Shown here one piece after another: positions 9,898 through 42,189 of a DNA stretch of 64,000 nt. The translations under genes were made by a program, and so were the position numbers. The DNA is taken from NCBI RefSeq assembly GCF_000304355.2, contig NC_018227.2, positions 744,001 to 808,000 on the forward strand, read 5' to 3'. The notes below the pieces were generated by a model that saw nothing but the letters and a program-made list of their open reading frames with translations, did no database searches and was not told where the DNA came from. Numbering within the stretch: position 1 is the first letter of the stretch; each line of letters starts with the position of its first letter. Source of the stretch: Methanoculleus bourgensis MS2. Its GTDB lineage: Archaea > Halobacteriota > Methanomicrobia > Methanomicrobiales > Methanoculleaceae.

Positions 9898-10690
9898 ACA
9901 GGCGCAGATGGCGATGATGCTTGAGGTCTGCGCCTACCCGAAACCCGGGAACGTGGACCGGTGTCATGACTATTCCGATACCCGCCTCGAGCACTTCCTT
10001 GCCTCGACCATCCTCGTGCGACCGGTCTTTGAGACGGCTGAGCGGACCGGCGGTCGCGTCGGGAGCCTGATCCGGGAGGCGGTTATGCTCACCAACAGTC
10101 ACGCCGGAGGGAACACCCACTTCGGGGCGTTCATCCTGCTCATCCCCCTCATCCTCGGGGGAGACATCGAGGGGGCGCGCCGGGTCGTGGCCGGGACCGA
10201 CGTCCAGGACGCGATCGATTTTTACGCGGCATTCGGGCTCACCCAGGTCAGGGTGGCGAAGAGCGACGACCTGGACGTGAACGACCCGGAGTCAATCGCC
10301 GCGATCAGGGAGCGGGGCATGACGCTTGCCGATATCATGGCCTACTCGGCGCCCCGGGATATGGTCGCCCGGGAGTGGACGAACGGGTTCGCCCTGACCC
10401 GCCAGTGCGCAGACCTGCTTCATGCGCACGGGCACGGCCGTGAGGCGATCGTGCGGACGTTTCTCGACCTCCTCGCATCGGTGCCGGACACCTTCATCGC
10501 GAAGAAGCACGGGGCGGAGGCGGCGGAGAGGACGATGCGGTGTGCGGGCGAAGTGCTCCGCGGGGGGCGCGATCTCCGTGCCTTCGATGCCGAGTGCATC
10601 AATGGCGGGATCAACCCGGGCTCGATCGCTGACATCACCATCGCCGGGATATACGTGGCGCTCGGGGAGGGGTGGCAGTGGGACTGCTAG
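9866..10690 (+). CDS. CitG-like (triphosphoribosyl-dephospho-CoA synthase family) protein
   Basis: 274 residues from the ATG at 9866, which overlaps the marker 9 gene. Family features are the CAYPKPGNVDRCHDY block near the N-terminus and the GGNTHFGAFILL core. Bacterial CitG makes the citrate lyase prosthetic group precursor from dephospho-CoA and ATP. No citrate lyase genes lie nearby, so the archaeal homologue probably does a different ribosyl transfer. It is followed by DUF447 with a 19-base overlap, so marker 9, CitG-like and DUF447 are likely co-translated. Function in methanogens is unknown to me. Confidence 0.8.
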   Translation: MKERTLANRAEQAQMAMMLEVCAYPKPGNVDRCHDYSDTRLEHFLASTILVRPVFETAERTGGRVGSLIREAVMLTNSHAGGNTHFGAFILLIPLILGGDIEGARRVVAGTDVQDAIDFYAAFGLTQVRVAKSDDLDVNDPESIAAIRERGMTLADIMAYSAPRDMVAREWTNGFALTRQCADLLHAHGHGREAIVRTFLDLLASVPDTFIAKKHGAEAAERTMRCAGEVLRGGRDLRAFDAECINGGINPGSIADITIAGIYVALGEGWQWDC

Positions 10691-11247
10691 CCGAGGGGAT
10701 CAACGAGGTGATCGCGACCACCGACTGCAACGCCGCCCCCATGGGGATCATCAACCGCAGCGGTTCCCTGCACATGGTCCTCTTCCGGGGGAGTCATACC
10801 GCCCGGAACATCGCCCGGGACCGCTGGGTGGTGGCGAACTTCGTCTTCGACCCGGTGCTCTACGTCAGGACCGCGTTTGACGACCTGCCCCGGGAAGCGT
10901 TTGTCAGGGAGGAGGTCGACGGGCTGGTCGTCTCCCGCCTCCGTGACGTGGAGGCCTGGACCGCGTTTGCCGCCGACGTGGAACGGTCAAGCGACGAGGC
11001 GATCATCGTCCGGCTCATCCCCGTAAAAGAGGAGGTGCTCGGGCTTCGGCTGCACCCGGTGAACCGCGGTTTTTACAGCATCGTGGACGCGACGGTTCAT
11101 GCCACCCGCTATGTCAGGAACCGCGACCCCTGGCTTGGGCAATTGATCGAGCACCACGCCGGCCTCGCCCGGAAGTGCGGCGGCCCCCGGGAGTGGGAGG
11201 CGCTCGACCTCCTCGAGCAGTATATGAGCGCCCGGGCTGCAGAATAA
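10672..11247 (+). CDS. DUF447 family protein (flavin-reductase-like fold)
   Basis: 191 residues from a GTG at 10672 (an in-frame GTG at 10678 is an alternative). The sequence is typical of the archaeal DUF447 family, whose split-barrel resembles FMN-binding flavoproteins: EVIATTDCNAAPMGI near the start, then FRGSHTARNI and RWVVANFVFDP. It is the third gene of the overlapping marker 9 / CitG-like / DUF447 unit. The role is unproven; an FMN-dependent step downstream of the ribosyl transfer is conceivable. The gap after it (11248-11372) holds the next promoter. Confidence 0.82.
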   Translation: MAVGLLAEGINEVIATTDCNAAPMGIINRSGSLHMVLFRGSHTARNIARDRWVVANFVFDPVLYVRTAFDDLPREAFVREEVDGLVVSRLRDVEAWTAFAADVERSSDEAIIVRLIPVKEEVLGLRLHPVNRGFYSIVDATVHATRYVRNRDPWLGQLIEHHAGLARKCGGPREWEALDLLEQYMSARAAE

Positions 11248-11321
11248 GATATCTGTGCGGATTCCGGCAGAAAAGGATGTATCTTCTCGACATTCATCTA
11301 TAATTTTCCTATTATACCAAT

Positions 11322-11332
11322 CAATATATACA
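11322..11332 (+). promoter_or_regulatory. TATA-box and Shine-Dalgarno for first fasciclin gene
   Basis: CAATATATACA lies about 45 bases before the ATG at 11373, and a strong GGGAGGT at 11359-11365 sits 7 bases before it. The array therefore starts with its own promoter and a short leader. Confidence 0.6.
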
Positions 11333-11372
11333 ATAACATGCCACGAGGGGCTCCCATAGGGAGGTACCTGGT

Positions 11373-11819
11373 ATGGCGAAGATCTTTGATGCATTAAAGA
11401 ACGACGGCAGGTTTGGCCGACTCATCGATATCATTCAGACCCTCGGTGAGGAGAAGACGTTGCAGGCCGAAGGGCCGATGACGTTCTTTGCCCCGGTCGA
11501 CTCGGCATGGGATGCGATCCCCGAACCGAACCGGGCGATGATCTTGAACGACAAGCAGATGCTCTCGCACCTCATCGACTTCTTCACGATCGACAGGCAC
11601 CGCTGCACGCTTGACGCGCTGCTCGCGCGGAATGTCGTCAAGACCGTCGAGGGGAACCTCATCGCGGTCAGGCAGACCGAGCGGGGCACACAGGTGGATG
11701 AGGCCGTCGTGATCGAGGGGAACATGGAGGCAGACAACGGCATCATCCACGTCCTGGACAGTGTCCCCTTCGCGACGCTCTCACAGGCCTTTGAGGCCTA
11801 CATGGCGGCCGGTGAGTAG
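11373..11819 (+). CDS. Single-domain fasciclin (FAS1) protein 1
   Basis: 148 residues forming one FAS1 domain with no signal peptide or membrane anchor. The H1-like motif is TFFAPVDSAWD and the H2-like region SHLIDFFTIDRH. The N-terminus MAKIFDALKNDGRF matches the start of the three following paralogues. FAS1 domains usually mediate adhesion or protein-protein contact outside the cell, so a cytoplasmic form is unusual. It is the most divergent of the four. It has a strong Shine-Dalgarno sequence and its own TATA element. Confidence 0.88.
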   Translation: MAKIFDALKNDGRFGRLIDIIQTLGEEKTLQAEGPMTFFAPVDSAWDAIPEPNRAMILNDKQMLSHLIDFFTIDRHRCTLDALLARNVVKTVEGNLIAVRQTERGTQVDEAVVIEGNMEADNGIIHVLDSVPFATLSQAFEAYMAAGE

Positions 11820-11875
11820 CCGGCCCGGGAACCCTTTCTTCAGCGTTCCACTGAATTGGGGGTGAGCAAACCCGG

Positions 11876-12192
11876 CACTGCTGGACCAAGTCACCTTAAT
11901 CTGGGGGTGCGTGGGAGTGATCGCCGGTCTCTCGCGGGAGGCATTATCCCCTCCCGGTACTGATACCTCACGCGAAGGCGCGAAGGACGCGAAGGGTTCC
12001 GGTTAGGAGGAGCGACACGGACTTCGCGTCTTCGCGCGAGAGACTGTAGCACCTCTCTACCGAAACCTCGCGCGGAAAGCCACGCGGGGGAGCGCGAAGG
12101 AGGAGCAGCAATCACGCGGGCGTCAGGGCAACGCGGCCTTCCGCGTGAGGCGGTATTGCATGGACACTATGAGATGAAATGCTCAACCATCA
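11876..12192. repeat. MITE-like repeat, family A, copy 2 (inverted)
   Basis: About 315 bases between fasciclin genes 1 and 2. The interior is nearly the reverse complement of copy 3 at 41.88-42.19 kb; shared blocks include GGTTCCGGTTAGGAGGAG and TCTCTACCGAAACCTCGCG. Ends: left TGCTGGACCAAGTCACCTTA, right (reverse complement) ATGGTTGAGCATTTCATCTC. It carries no conserved frame. It sits upstream of the TATA box of fasciclin 2, so it could also influence that promoter or the preceding transcript end. Confidence 0.75.
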
Positions 12193-12252
12193 TTCGGTCA
12201 ATACCGCTCCGCCCCCGGGAGCCACACATCAGTTCAGACCCCATAACCGCAA

Positions 12253-12262
12253 TTTTATATAT
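12253..12262 (+). promoter_or_regulatory. TATA-box of fasciclin gene 2
   Basis: TTTTATATAT lies about 45-50 bases before the ATG at 12305, followed by GGAGG at 12293-12297 as ribosome-binding site. It shows gene 2 can be transcribed independently of gene 1. Confidence 0.6.
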
Positions 12263-12304
12263 CATGCGAAATGATCTCGCCGGTGCTCATCTGGAGGATA
12301 ACCT

Positions 12305-12739
12305 ATGAAGAATATATTTGAGACAGCCCGGGAGGACGACCGGTTGAGCACCTCTGTCAGGATGGCAGATGCAGGAGGCGTGACAGAGTTCCTCCAGAAA
12401 AGAGGGCCTTATACGGTCTTTATCCCGACGGATGAAGCGTATACGAGGATCCCGGAGGAGAAGCTTGAGGCTATCGTGAGCGACCGGGAGAGACTTGCGG
12501 GCATGGTCATGTACCATGTGGTCCAGGGCAAACTCACCACACACGAACTGGCGCAGATGGAGGCGATCAGGACCCTGCAGGGGGACCACCTGGATATTGC
12601 AGCGTCACCTGAAGGGATGCGGTTGAACGATGCGGTCATCATCCAGCCGGACATTGAGTGCACAAACGGCATGTATCACGTCATCGATCGCGTGCTCATA
12701 CCCCGGGCGGTCGAGGCACGGGTGGAGAGGTCGTTCTGA
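12305..12739 (+). CDS. Single-domain fasciclin (FAS1) protein 2
   Basis: 144 residues, one FAS1 domain, no export signal. The N-terminus MKNIFETAREDDRLS, H1 motif VFIPTDEAYTR and H2 region MYHVVQGKL are clear; the C-terminal part has the usual INGVHVID equivalent as NGMYHVIDRVL. It is closer to proteins 3 and 4 than to 1. The array suggests recent tandem duplication. Function is unknown; a cytosolic binding protein is the simplest inference. Confidence 0.88.
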   Translation: MKNIFETAREDDRLSTSVRMADAGGVTEFLQKRGPYTVFIPTDEAYTRIPEEKLEAIVSDRERLAGMVMYHVVQGKLTTHELAQMEAIRTLQGDHLDIAASPEGMRLNDAVIIQPDIECTNGMYHVIDRVLIPRAVEARVERSF

Positions 12740-12800
12740 TCCTGGGGGGCCGGGACGCCGTATCGGGTTTTCTCTCGGTTACGGGGAGACGGGTTCAATC

Positions 12801-13226
12801 ATGAAGAGTATCTTTGCAACACTGCGGGAATCGGGATCGTTCACCACGTTCCTGGATCTTATACGGGCAGCGGGCATGGAGGAGCGGTTGAGGACCGAAG
12901 GGCCCTACACGCTCTTCGTCCCGGACGACGACGCCTTCCGGGCGGTACCGCGGTCGGAACTCGACTCGATCCTTGATGATATCGACCGGCTCACCGATAT
13001 CCTGAACTACCATATCGTCCCGGGGGTGCACTCCGCAATAGACCTGCTTGGGATACGGACCCTGCGGTCGCTCCAGGGGGAAGACCTGACCGTGGATATT
13101 GCGCCGGAGGGTGTGCTGGTCAACAACGTGCCGGTAATAGAGACCGATGCCTGGTGCACCAACGGGATCTGCCACGCGGTCTATATGCTGCTCCTGCCTC
13201 CCGGGGTCAGGGCGGCTGCTGTGTAG
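12801..13226 (+). CDS. Single-domain fasciclin (FAS1) protein 3
   Basis: 141 residues from the ATG at 12801. The frame is open back to 12630, but that part overlaps gene 2 and lacks FAS1 character. The motifs are MKSIFATLRESGSF, LFVPDDDAFRA, NYHIVPGVHS and NGICHAVYMLLLPP. No TATA element is evident in the 61-base gap after gene 2, so the two may share a transcript. No signal peptide. Confidence 0.87.
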   Translation: MKSIFATLRESGSFTTFLDLIRAAGMEERLRTEGPYTLFVPDDDAFRAVPRSELDSILDDIDRLTDILNYHIVPGVHSAIDLLGIRTLRSLQGEDLTVDIAPEGVLVNNVPVIETDAWCTNGICHAVYMLLLPPGVRAAAV

Positions 13227-13236
13227 GGTTCAGGGG

Positions 13237-13248
13237 AATATATAAATA
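13237..13248 (+). promoter_or_regulatory. TATA-box of fasciclin gene 4
   Basis: GAATATATAAAT, about 40 bases before the ATG at 13283, with GGGGAGAGAGG just before the start as ribosome-binding site. Confidence 0.6.
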
Positions 13249-13282
13249 ATCCGGCGCATGAGTGGTGCGCGGGGAGAGAGGT

Positions 13283-13708
13283 ATGAAGAACATCATTGAA
13301 ACCCTCCAGGACTCAGGGAGTTTCACTGCGTTTCTTGACCTGATCCGGATAGCAGGCATGGAGCCGATGCTCCGCGAGCGAGGGCCGTTCACGGTCTTTG
13401 TCCCGACGGATGAGGCTTTTTCCCGGGTTCCAAAGGAGCGGATGGACGAGATCCGGGGGGACCCGGATAAGGCTGTTCTCATTATGAGTTACCACGTCGT
13501 GCCGGGGAGCCTGACTTCTGAGGAACTCCGGAGCATGACGACCATCAGGTCGAACCTCGGGACCGATCTCGTCATCCGGTCATCCGATAAGGGCATCACC
13601 GTCAACGGTGTTGCAATCGTCGAGGCCGACGCCTTCTGCACCAACGGGGTCTGCCACGCCATCGGTGCGGCGCTTGTTCCTCCGTCAATCGACGTCGTTG
13701 TGCCCTGA
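13283..13708 (+). CDS. Single-domain fasciclin (FAS1) protein 4
   Basis: 141 residues from the ATG at 13283, chosen for its Shine-Dalgarno sequence and because the homologous MKNIIETLQDSGSF starts there. One FAS1 domain: VFVPTDEAFSRVP, SYHVVPGSL, NGVCHAIGAALVPP. It is highly similar to protein 3. The 3' end overlaps the convergent uvsE gene by 24 bases. No signal peptide, so it is predicted cytoplasmic. Confidence 0.88.
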   Translation: MKNIIETLQDSGSFTAFLDLIRIAGMEPMLRERGPFTVFVPTDEAFSRVPKERMDEIRGDPDKAVLIMSYHVVPGSLTSEELRSMTTIRSNLGTDLVIRSSDKGITVNGVAIVEADAFCTNGVCHAIGAALVPPSIDVVVP

Positions 13709-14611
13709 CTGGGCGGGCCGGAACCATCGCCCATCCCGGCAGGCGCTCCCGACGGCCCGGAGAGCGCTCTTCTCTTTATCCTTGATCTCGAGCATGATGT
13801 CCATATCCGCCGGTGCGGTTTCGGCGAGGAACTCTTCAAAGAGCGCAGGATCCAGGCTCTCTGCATGCCGCCCCTTCCGCCCGCCGGGCATCTGGGTGCT
13901 GTAATCGGTCATCAGGATGCCGTCTTTTGGCCGCCAGGTCGCGGTGCAGAGGTCAACCGCCTCCGCCACCGCTTCACCTGAAGGATTAACCTGGTGGTGG
14001 AACACATCGAAGAGCACCGGAACGCCGGTCTCCTCGTGGATGCGGAGACAGTCGGCCAGGGTGTAGCGCGAGTCGTCGTTCTCGATGACCAGCCGGCGGA
14101 CGACATTCTCGTCGAGGTGGGCGTATTTGCTTGCGAACCGATTCATACTCGCCTCCCGGTCTCCGTACACGCCGCCGACGTGGACCTGGATCTTTGCGGT
14201 CCCATCGAGGTGCATGGCATCGAGGACCGTGGCATGATAGCGGAGTTCCGCGACGCTCCGCTCGACGATACCCGGGTCTTTCGCGTTGATGATGACGAAC
14301 TGGTCCGGGTGCATGGAGATCCGCATCCCGTGCTCTCTGATGAACCTGCCGATCTCCTGGAATGTCTCAGCGAAGGTCTCCTGCCAGGGGACGGTGCAGA
14401 CCGGGTGCGATGCGAACGGGACGAGGTCTGAGGTGATCCGGAAGAAGAGTATGGAACCCTTGAGGTTCTCGCGGAGGATCGCGTGGAGGCAGCGGAGGTT
14501 CCCCCGGACGGTCTCCTCCAGCCGCTCGTCGGAGTAGGAGGCGAGCCTGAACGTGCGGCCTGAGGTGCAGCCGATGCTCCGGTTGATGCACGGGTAGCCG
14601 ATCTTCATCAC
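13685..14611 (-). CDS. uvsE: UV damage endonuclease (UvsE/UVDE)
   Basis: 308 residues, the full length of the family. The enzyme is a TIM-barrel metalloendonuclease that nicks DNA 5' of UV photoproducts and other distortions. Visible motifs are KIGYPCINRSIGC at the start, RISMHPDQFVI, the metal-binding segments KIQVHVGGVYGD and RLVIENDD, and LFDVFHHQVNP and MLEIKDKEKSA near the end. The start ATG ATG is close to the end of the MutY-like gene (gap about 48 bases), so the two may be co-transcribed. It is a repair route independent of photolyase or UvrABC. Confidence 0.93.
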   Translation of the reverse strand: MMKIGYPCINRSIGCTSGRTFRLASYSDERLEETVRGNLRCLHAILRENLKGSILFFRITSDLVPFASHPVCTVPWQETFAETFQEIGRFIREHGMRISMHPDQFVIINAKDPGIVERSVAELRYHATVLDAMHLDGTAKIQVHVGGVYGDREASMNRFASKYAHLDENVVRRLVIENDDSRYTLADCLRIHEETGVPVLFDVFHHQVNPSGEAVAEAVDLCTATWRPKDGILMTDYSTQMPGGRKGRHAESLDPALFEEFLAETAPADMDIMLEIKDKEKSALRAVGSACRDGRWFRPAQSGHNDVD

Positions 14612-16697: not shown

Positions 16698-18149
16698 ATG
16701 AACCTGACGGCTGCCCCCGATCTTCCTGCCGGCCTCGAGTGGCTCAACACCGATCACCCGCTCTCCATCAGTGAACTGGCAGGCAGGATCGTGCTGCTCT
16801 GCTTTGGGACGTTCGCCTGTTCAAACTGCATGCGGATGGTGCCTGAACTCCGGCGCCTCGAGGAGGATCACCCGGAACTGGTGGTCATCGAGGTCCATAC
16901 ACCGGGGTTCGAGTCCCCCGCAGTCACCGGGAATCTCCAGGAGGCGATTCGCTGCGCCGGGATCGATTACCCGGTCGTCATCGACCATGACCATCTGCTC
17001 TGGCAGGCCTTCGGGATCCGGAACTGGCCGACGTTCGTCCTCATCGACCCGGAAGGGCACGTTCTCGGGAAGACGGCCGGGGAAGGGCTCTACGGGCGGC
17101 TCAACCCAAGGATCGACCGGATCGCAAGGGATTTCGAGCAGCGCGGCATGCTCGTGAAGAAACGGCTGCAGTTCGCGGCCGCTCCTGCGACGGTTCTGTA
17201 TCATCCCGACAAGATCACGGCGGACCATGCAGGGATGCGCCTGTTCATAAGCGATTCCGGTCACCACCGGATCATCGTCGCCAGCCGGGACGGAGCGATC
17301 CTCGGGGTCATCGGCACCGGGGCCCCGGGGAACGCCGACGGGTCCTCCTCAGAGGCTGCATTCTACCTGCCCGAGGGCCTCGCTTTTGATGAAGAGGCCG
17401 GGGTCCTTTACGTTGCAGATGCCGGGAACCATACCATACGGCAGGTCTCCTGGCCGGACCTGAGGGTTGAGACGGTTGCCGGGACCGGGCTTGAGGCGCC
17501 GTCACCCGGCGAAGGCGGACCCGGAACCGGCGTGGCGTTGAACGCACCGCGGGATCTCGCGCTGATGGGCGACTACCTCTACATCGCTATGGCCGGGGCA
17601 AACCAGGTCTGGCGGATGGACCTCGCTACCCATACTCTGGAGCCCTACGCCGGTTCCGGCCTGGAGGGACTGACGGATGGCCCGCTCCGTGAGGCCGCCT
17701 TTGCCGGCCCCTCCGGGATCGTCACCGACGGGGAGGCGCTCTACATTGCCGACAGCGGGGCTTCAGCGATCCGCCACATACAGCGGGGGGTGGTCGAGAC
17801 CCTCATCGGCCACTCCCTGGAAGACTTCGGCGACCTCGACACCATCGCAAGGATGGCGCGTATCCACCATCCGATGGGTATAGCCAGCCATCAGGGGTTG
17901 CTCTACATCGCTGATACCTACAACCACAAGATCAAGGAGCTTGACCCGGGCACCGGCTGGGTCCTCACCAGGGTCGGGAGCGGGGATCGCGGTTACCAGA
18001 ACGGGGTATCAGGGGATGCAAGACTGAGCGAACCGGGCGGTCTGGTCAACCTCGGGGGGCTCTGGTACATCGCCGATACCGGCAACCATGCTGTCAGGGT
18101 CTATGACCCGGTCAGCCACGTGGTCTCGACCCTGACACTTCGGAGGTAG
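16698..18149 (+). CDS. Thioredoxin-like/NHL-repeat beta-propeller protein (NHLRC2-like)
   Basis: 483 residues. Residues about 10-145 are a thioredoxin fold with a CSNC active-site pair in GTFACSNCMRMVPEL and the cis-Pro region NWPTFVLIDPEG. The rest is a six-bladed NHL propeller with repeats ending ADAGNHTIRQ, IADSGASAIRH, IADTYNHKIKE and IADTGNHAVRV. This domain order is that of NHLRC2-type proteins. There is no signal peptide, so it is predicted cytoplasmic. The Trx part may reduce or bind partners held by the propeller; substrate unknown. A TATA-like patch around 16666-16675 would give a nearly leaderless mRNA. Confidence 0.82.
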   Translation: MNLTAAPDLPAGLEWLNTDHPLSISELAGRIVLLCFGTFACSNCMRMVPELRRLEEDHPELVVIEVHTPGFESPAVTGNLQEAIRCAGIDYPVVIDHDHLLWQAFGIRNWPTFVLIDPEGHVLGKTAGEGLYGRLNPRIDRIARDFEQRGMLVKKRLQFAAAPATVLYHPDKITADHAGMRLFISDSGHHRIIVASRDGAILGVIGTGAPGNADGSSSEAAFYLPEGLAFDEEAGVLYVADAGNHTIRQVSWPDLRVETVAGTGLEAPSPGEGGPGTGVALNAPRDLALMGDYLYIAMAGANQVWRMDLATHTLEPYAGSGLEGLTDGPLREAAFAGPSGIVTDGEALYIADSGASAIRHIQRGVVETLIGHSLEDFGDLDTIARMARIHHPMGIASHQGLLYIADTYNHKIKELDPGTGWVLTRVGSGDRGYQNGVSGDARLSEPGGLVNLGGLWYIADTGNHAVRVYDPVSHVVSTLTLRR

Positions 18150-18247: not shown

Positions 18248-18850
18248 ATGCGGACGACCTGTACACTACTCATGGTTGCCCTGGTTCTCGGGGCAGCGGT
18301 TCTTGTTTGTGGCTGCACCAGCCTCCGGGAGGATAACGTTCAGAACCAGACGCCTGCCGGGACGCCGGGCGAGAATCTGACAATCGACGAGGTTTTAGCC
18401 AGGGACGGAAACTTCTCAACGTTCGTCCGGGCGCTTGACGCCTCCAGGCTTGAGGGGCTGCTCACCGGGTCTGGGCCCTACACGGTCTTTGCGCCCACCG
18501 ACGAGGCTTTCAGCCGGCTTCCACCGGGGACGCTGGACGAGCTCTTCGGGGACCCGAAGGGCAATCTGGCCGAGATCCTGCTCTACCACGTGGCTCCCGG
18601 TGAATACCCGGCATCTGAGGATGCCACTATCGCGACCGTCCAGGGCAGCCCAATCGCTCTCGACGCCACCGGTGAGAGCATGACGGTGAACGGTGCGAAG
18701 GTAGTCCGGACCGGTATCCCGGCGGCGAACGGCGTCATCCACGCCATCGATGCGGTCCTCCTCCCGCCTGAGATCACCCTGCCGGTGATCAATGCGACAG
18801 CCACTGATACGCCGACAGGGACCGGCAACACGACGAACACCACTGACTGA
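18248..18850 (+). CDS. Fasciclin-domain lipoprotein
   Basis: 200 residues. The N-terminus is a lipoprotein signal peptide: MRTTCTLL, a hydrophobic stretch, and lipobox-like VLVCGC with the acceptor Cys near residue 25. One FAS1 domain follows (residues about 45-178: VFAPTDEAFSRLP, LYHVAPGEY, NGVIHAIDAVLLPP), then a Thr/Asn-rich tail of about 20 residues that could be glycosylated. In contrast to the four proteins at 11.4-13.7 kb it is exported and membrane-anchored. A role in cell-surface adhesion is usual for the domain. Confidence 0.9.
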   Translation: MRTTCTLLMVALVLGAAVLVCGCTSLREDNVQNQTPAGTPGENLTIDEVLARDGNFSTFVRALDASRLEGLLTGSGPYTVFAPTDEAFSRLPPGTLDELFGDPKGNLAEILLYHVAPGEYPASEDATIATVQGSPIALDATGESMTVNGAKVVRTGIPAANGVIHAIDAVLLPPEITLPVINATATDTPTGTGNTTNTTD

Positions 18851-41879: not shown

Positions 41880-42189
41880 TTTTCATGCGAAATTTCATGC
41901 GCAGCGTTGCGTCACGCAGAAGAGCGCGTTGCCTTGACGCCCGCGTGATTGCTGCCCTCCCTCAGCGCTCCCCCGCGTGGCTTTCCGCGTGAGGTTTCGG
42001 TAGAGAGGTGCTACAGTCTCTCGCGCGAAGACGCGAAGACGCGAAGTCCGTGTCGCTCCTCCTAACCGGAACCCTTCGCGTCCTTCGCGCCTTCGCGTGA
42101 GGTTTCAGTACCGGGAGGGGATAATGCCTCCCGCGAGAGACCGGCGATCACTCCCACGCACCGTCACGTTAAGGTGAAACAGCCCACTA
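41880..42189. repeat. MITE-like repeat, family A, copy 3
   Basis: About 310 bases next to tRNA-Arg. It is nearly the reverse complement of the copy at 11.88-12.19 kb over more than 200 bases (blocks CCTCCTAACCGGAACCC, GGTAGAGAGGTGCTACAGTC). The right end, in reverse complement, is GTAGTGGGCTGTTTCACCTT; the left end is degenerate (TTTTTCATGCGAAATTTCATG) near the tRNA. No conserved coding frame. Confidence 0.78.

Follow-up and report, generated by a model that had tools for sequence, protein, structure and literature searches.

FAS1 (fasciclin) domains are treated as extracellular adhesion domains in all kingdoms. Their fold is found in a fasciclin-like protein of Rhodobacter sphaeroides (PDB 1w7d) and in TGFBIp and periostin, which in animals are secreted, multi-domain matrix proteins. 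The initial annotation of the locus described here stated that FAS1 domains are nearly always extracellular, which is fair as a rule, but the rule has exceptions, structurally characterised ones included, in cyanobacteria, red algae and methanogen families. CupS (Tll0220; PDB 2mxa, 6tjv_Q), a small, intracellular single-FAS1 protein, is a subunit of the cyanobacterial CO2-uptake complex NDH-1MS and its gene belongs to the ndhF3-ndhD3-cupA-cupS operon (PMC11456788). LRC6 and LR9 (PDB 6kgx, 5y6p, 7ezx) are intracellular (plastid) FAS1 proteins that form part of a large complex, the red-algal phycobilisome, to which they contribute as linkers. In a word search of a review of the domain (PMC6032426), neither CupS nor cytoplasm occurs.

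Here we examine an array of four FAS1 genes, A to D, in a 64,000-nucleotide stretch (the window) of the genome of Methanoculleus bourgensis MS2, which consists of one contig of 2,789,774 bases. Like CupS, the encoded proteins are small, carry one FAS1 domain and are predicted to be intracellular, but the identity to CupS is about 28% and four paralogues stand against a single CupS. LRC6 and LR9 are longer proteins with other parts, whereas A–D are bare domains. Identity to the R. sphaeroides, TGFBIp and periostin domains is about 22–38%, and orthology with the animal proteins is not implied.

Gene content and conservation of the array

The four genes lie head to tail on the forward strand at window positions 11373–11819 (A, 148 amino acids, starting with MAKIFDAL), 12305–12739 (B, 144 amino acids, MKNIFET), 12801–13226 (C, 141 amino acids, MKSIFAT) and 13283–13708 (D, 141 amino acids, MKNIIET). 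Each encodes a single complete Pfam Fasciclin domain (PF02469; E-values of 2.8e-21, 1.7e-31, 1.7e-29 and 2.6e-29, respectively) and almost nothing besides. In the profile search, the scores of 76–109 bits compare with a curated cut-off of 22, and the alignments span positions 2–120 of the 123 profile positions in A and 2–123 in B–D. The domain begins at most about 12 residues after the start codon, and the profile matches and N-termini together confirm the original description of four single-domain fasciclin genes that lack signal peptides. An H1-type box and an NGxxH (H2) box are present in all four proteins, with the motifs CTNGICH in C and CTNGVCH in D. The YH motif is missing from A only, the most divergent of the paralogues, which has DFFTI in its place. 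No catalytic family was detected in A–D, NCBIfam holds no family that matches them or the neighbouring DUF447 protein, and an Rfam scan of positions 10500–14200 returned no RNA family. A longer version of C starting at an in-frame ATG at 12630 was rejected, as this N-terminal extension would overlap B out of frame and is unconserved. Outside the window, the genome contains three more FAS1 genes, at about 728.7, 1863 and 2562 kb.

We searched 35 Methanoculleus genomes for the FAS1 domain and found it in 34. The searched genomes supplied 31 array loci, which with the window make a sample of 32, and 25 of these, from different genomes and including the window, display the complete A-B-C-D order on one strand. 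The others are mostly contig fragments; in one of them (G024), B of an otherwise complete array is broken by an in-frame stop (L063 2903–3361). In the phylogeny of the FAS1 domains, a check that had been proposed for the five fasciclins of the window, A, C and D are each set apart by a single branch (SH-aLRT of 94, 99 and 96, respectively), and B falls into a single group (support of 100) that includes the lone FAS1 genes of two small genomes, with the lipoprotein orthologues described below forming a separate clade. Among the FAS1 proteins of a neighbouring genus, some group with A and D, one is a likely relative of B and others are further copies. Judged from these sequences, the four genes represent as many orthologous groups, ancient paralogues that are found throughout the genus. 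The "expansion" of the initial annotation is to be corrected accordingly: with the order kept in 25 of 32 loci and the old splits, the array is not a recent, local event. That the array might be a common conserved set with a known function had also been considered: it is common and conserved, but no known function was found for it.

All four genes are under purifying selection, with median dN/dS values of 0.215 (A), 0.29 (B), 0.23 (C) and 0.175 (D), and in A 95 of 148 positions are at least 90% conserved. The size of the array varies: there are five genes in G028 and G037, about eight in G036 and B alone in G010 and G030, and in one genome a fifth gene is located between A and B. The two small-genome species that retain B alone have it at the same site and next to the same upstream genes, so A, C and D are dispensable in some settings. 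In one of them (G010, a Methanoculleus genome that is 99% complete; L094 4451–5008), the B orthologue is the only FAS1 domain, which argues that B has a role that does not involve any exported FAS1 protein. The larger arrays of a related genus (about eight signal-less genes at L090 4270–8286 in G036 and five at L091 3971–8496 in G037) follow the same upstream genes, and within the latter array a gene was noted by eye whose product is long and PAS-like.

Export signals and predicted location

None of about 110 orthologues of A–D has a signal-like hydrophobic N-terminus. The open frame upstream of A and D extends for only 7–12 codons that contain no hydrophobic stretch, and that of B for one codon. 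Furthermore, with the first helix starting as early as residue 4 in the AlphaFold models of both D and A, there is no room for a signal sequence. The signal peptide or lipobox that is the hallmark of classical exported FAS1 adhesion proteins is absent from A–D and their orthologues.

The fifth fasciclin noted at 18.2 kb (18248–18850, forward strand) is indeed a lipoprotein, its start, MRTTCTLLMVALVLGAAVLVCGC, containing the lipobox. Like other archaeal exported FAS1 lipoproteins and surface proteins, it shares the Pfam domain with A–D and lies in the same genome region, several kilobases away from the array, as it does in relatives. It differs from A–D in its signal peptide with lipobox, Thr/Asn-rich linker, abundance of N-glycosylation sequons and clade of its own. 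The mean number of sequons per domain is 0.48 in A, 0.10 in B, 0 in C and 0.26 in D, compared to 2.08 in the lipoprotein orthologues. This depletion supports, as an independent if indirect sign, the notion that A–D are not exposed to the glycosylation machinery of the surface. We infer from the N-termini and the sequons that A–D stay in the cytoplasm and very probably have a role inside the cell, in line with the location first proposed for them. The gene adjoining that of the lipoprotein (16698–18149) encodes a thioredoxin-like and NHL-repeat protein, and this adjacency is kept in relatives.

Signal-less FAS1 proteins of about 140 amino acids, often encoded by single genes, are not confined to this family: two further families of the order Methanomicrobiales have them, as does a family elsewhere in the phylum that reads as Methanosarcinaceae-like. 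On a more inclusive tree, 2 label changes separate signal-less from exported FAS1 proteins, compared to 15.8 with shuffled labels, for a sample that was selected by resemblance to the signal-less proteins and so favours that form, and with labels assigned per locus. One tandem copy labelled exported, at L118, has no clear signal; this locus (1675–2671, G215), which belongs to another family of the phylum, carries tandem FAS1 genes, only one of which encodes a clear signal peptide.

With four predicted-cytoplasmic paralogues throughout a genus and a species whose sole FAS1 protein is predicted to be cytoplasmic, the reading of "fasciclin" as "adhesion" in annotations and expression data of biogas methanogens can be wrong. 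A–D provide a defined gene set for testing an intracellular role of FAS1.

Promoters of the four genes

Three of the genes were originally credited with separate TATA boxes, which is correct for the window; in most relatives all four genes have one. Across orthologues, each of the four groups of leaders contains a conserved TATA box at a distance that is specific to the group. The box of A (11325–11330, forward strand) is TATATA, 48 nucleotides upstream of the start, and is matched within one mismatch by 97% of A leaders. As a shuffled AT-rich A leader also matches in 52%, the argument for this box rests on its fixed position and on the nearly invariant TATATA columns of orthologous leaders. 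The box of B (12253–12262, forward strand) is TTTTATATAT, the exact 8-mer of which is present in 90% of 31 B leaders but at 0.6% of random places, and that of D (13241–13248, forward strand) is TATAAATA, located within the conserved TATAAATAATCCGG and found exactly in 82% of 27 D leaders but at 0.9% of random places. In C leaders, 23 of 28 have the box within one mismatch and 64% have the exact 8-mer; across the B, C and D boxes, exact 8-mers occur at 0.4–0.9% of random places.

In the window, the B–C spacer (12740–12800, forward strand) has no TATA box. Relative to its orthologues, C of M. bourgensis MS2 has lost it and, with no box and a distance of 61 nucleotides to B, is probably co-transcribed with B in this strain. 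Conserved boxes across the genus support one promoter per gene, bearing out the individual promoters of the initial annotation. The differential regulation suggested there would be plausible; a literature search produced no expression data tied to A–D. Hairpins over the Shine-Dalgarno sequences of A and C, which look conserved by eye, were rejected as candidate elements, the consensus folds having energies of −2.1 and −0.1 kcal/mol, respectively, and no useful covariation.

The A–B spacer is 485 nucleotides long in the window and mostly 100–220 nucleotides in relatives. Inside it lies a dispersed repeat of roughly 250–300 bp (11900–12200) with 94 partial matches genome-wide, the best other copy of which, at 93% identity, is located beside a tRNA-Arg gene at about 41909–42162 of the window.

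Possible roles inside the cell

Both of the AlphaFold models (pLDDT of 94.3 for D and 84 for A, AF2) display the FAS1 fold. In Foldseek searches with these models, the strong matches are FAS1 structures, with ASFV p15 at the weak end only. CupS (6tjv_Q) is matched with a TM-score of 0.79–0.81 and, in the case of A, in a full-domain alignment (TM-score of 0.81, rmsd of 1.7), a similarity that is no higher than that to extracellular TGFBIp domains. Those of the matched FAS1 structures that are known to be intracellular are subunits of complexes: CupS, the phycobilisome linkers and a Toxoplasma mitoribosome protein.

Given (i) the precedent of intracellular FAS1 proteins in assemblies and (ii) the bare binding domains of A–D, with no catalytic family recognised in them, work as subunits or adaptors inside the cell appears most likely. 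We propose the following model. A–D would be an ancient set of four cytoplasmic single-FAS1-domain proteins, each ancestrally expressed from its own archaeal TATA promoter, with C of M. bourgensis MS2, its box lost, probably riding on the B transcript. The proteins would act as small protein-binding modules in larger intracellular assemblies, as CupS does in NDH-1MS and LRC6 and LR9 in phycobilisomes, and separate promoters would let the cell shift the proportions of the four modules. That the set is conserved, signal-less and separately promoted can be held with high confidence; for the complete model, in which it also supplies subunits or adaptors inside the cell, we would give an even chance. 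A broader version, a dedicated intracellular FAS1 system of methanogens of the phylum that provides exchangeable subunits to an energy-conserving or other large complex, and that Methanoculleus would have multiplied to four individually promoted modules so as to tune that complex, is a tentative extension that we consider unlikely.

Gene context was dropped as a clue to partners of A–D, since only family-level neighbours are constant. Upstream of the array there are conserved CitG-like, DUF447 and related genes, and downstream genes of the UvsE/MutY type; the neighbours profiled between 6.9 and 18.2 kb comprise cofactor-type, DNA-repair and NHL/thioredoxin genes. Neither a cupA/NDH-1 membrane-arm operon nor a complex-I-type gene was identified among them. 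As these neighbours are common to the family only, they look like vertical synteny. They bear on a second reading, in which A–D would carry or store a small ligand, either hydrophobic or a tetrapyrrole, for instance for the cofactor biosynthesis next door. FAS1 carotenoid binders exist (8c18, 22iy), and CbiX, CitG-like, DUF447 and Dus-like genes lie next to the array in this family, but in the other families examined signal-less FAS1 genes lack that neighbourhood: as read by eye from translations, they lie beside uvrB/uvrC and phosphatase/anti-sigma/STAS-type genes (in one family, L096–L101, with a single signal-less FAS1 gene) or beside aminotransferase and aldehyde dehydrogenase genes. We regard such a carrier role as unlikely.

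Alternatively, A–D might reach the surface along a pathway that needs no signal and serve in adhesion or flocculation, FAS1 being in general an adhesion domain (PMC6032426). In 'Ca. Methanoculleus ammoniitolerans', an unannotated and otherwise unspecified gene with a fasciclin domain is upregulated by motion and discussed along with surface genes (PMC12008871), and the EPS of granules contained a fasciclin protein of Methanosaeta, in extracts that also contained cytoplasmic enzymes (PMC6367495). The signal-less N-termini of about 110 orthologues, the depletion of sequons relative to the lipoprotein, the separate lineages of signal-less and exported FAS1 proteins and the presence in the same genomes of exported FAS1 proteins with normal signals make this route unlikely.

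The cysteines of C and D raise the prospect of thiol- or metal-dependent redox modules built, in these proteins and their f4-family relatives, on the motif CTNGxCH. This CX4CH motif at the H2 box is present in 28/28 C and 26/26 D classified orthologues, the f4-family relatives carry CSNGVCH, and free thiols would suit a reducing cytoplasm. At the motif site, however, A has neither cysteine, B has the first only and Methanosarcinaceae-type relatives have one, and we judge a redox role of this kind unlikely. Finally, a neutral, recently duplicated array that lacks a selected function, to which the varying gene number might point, is hardly credible in view of the low dN/dS, the old paralogue splits and the conserved order and promoters of the array as a whole.
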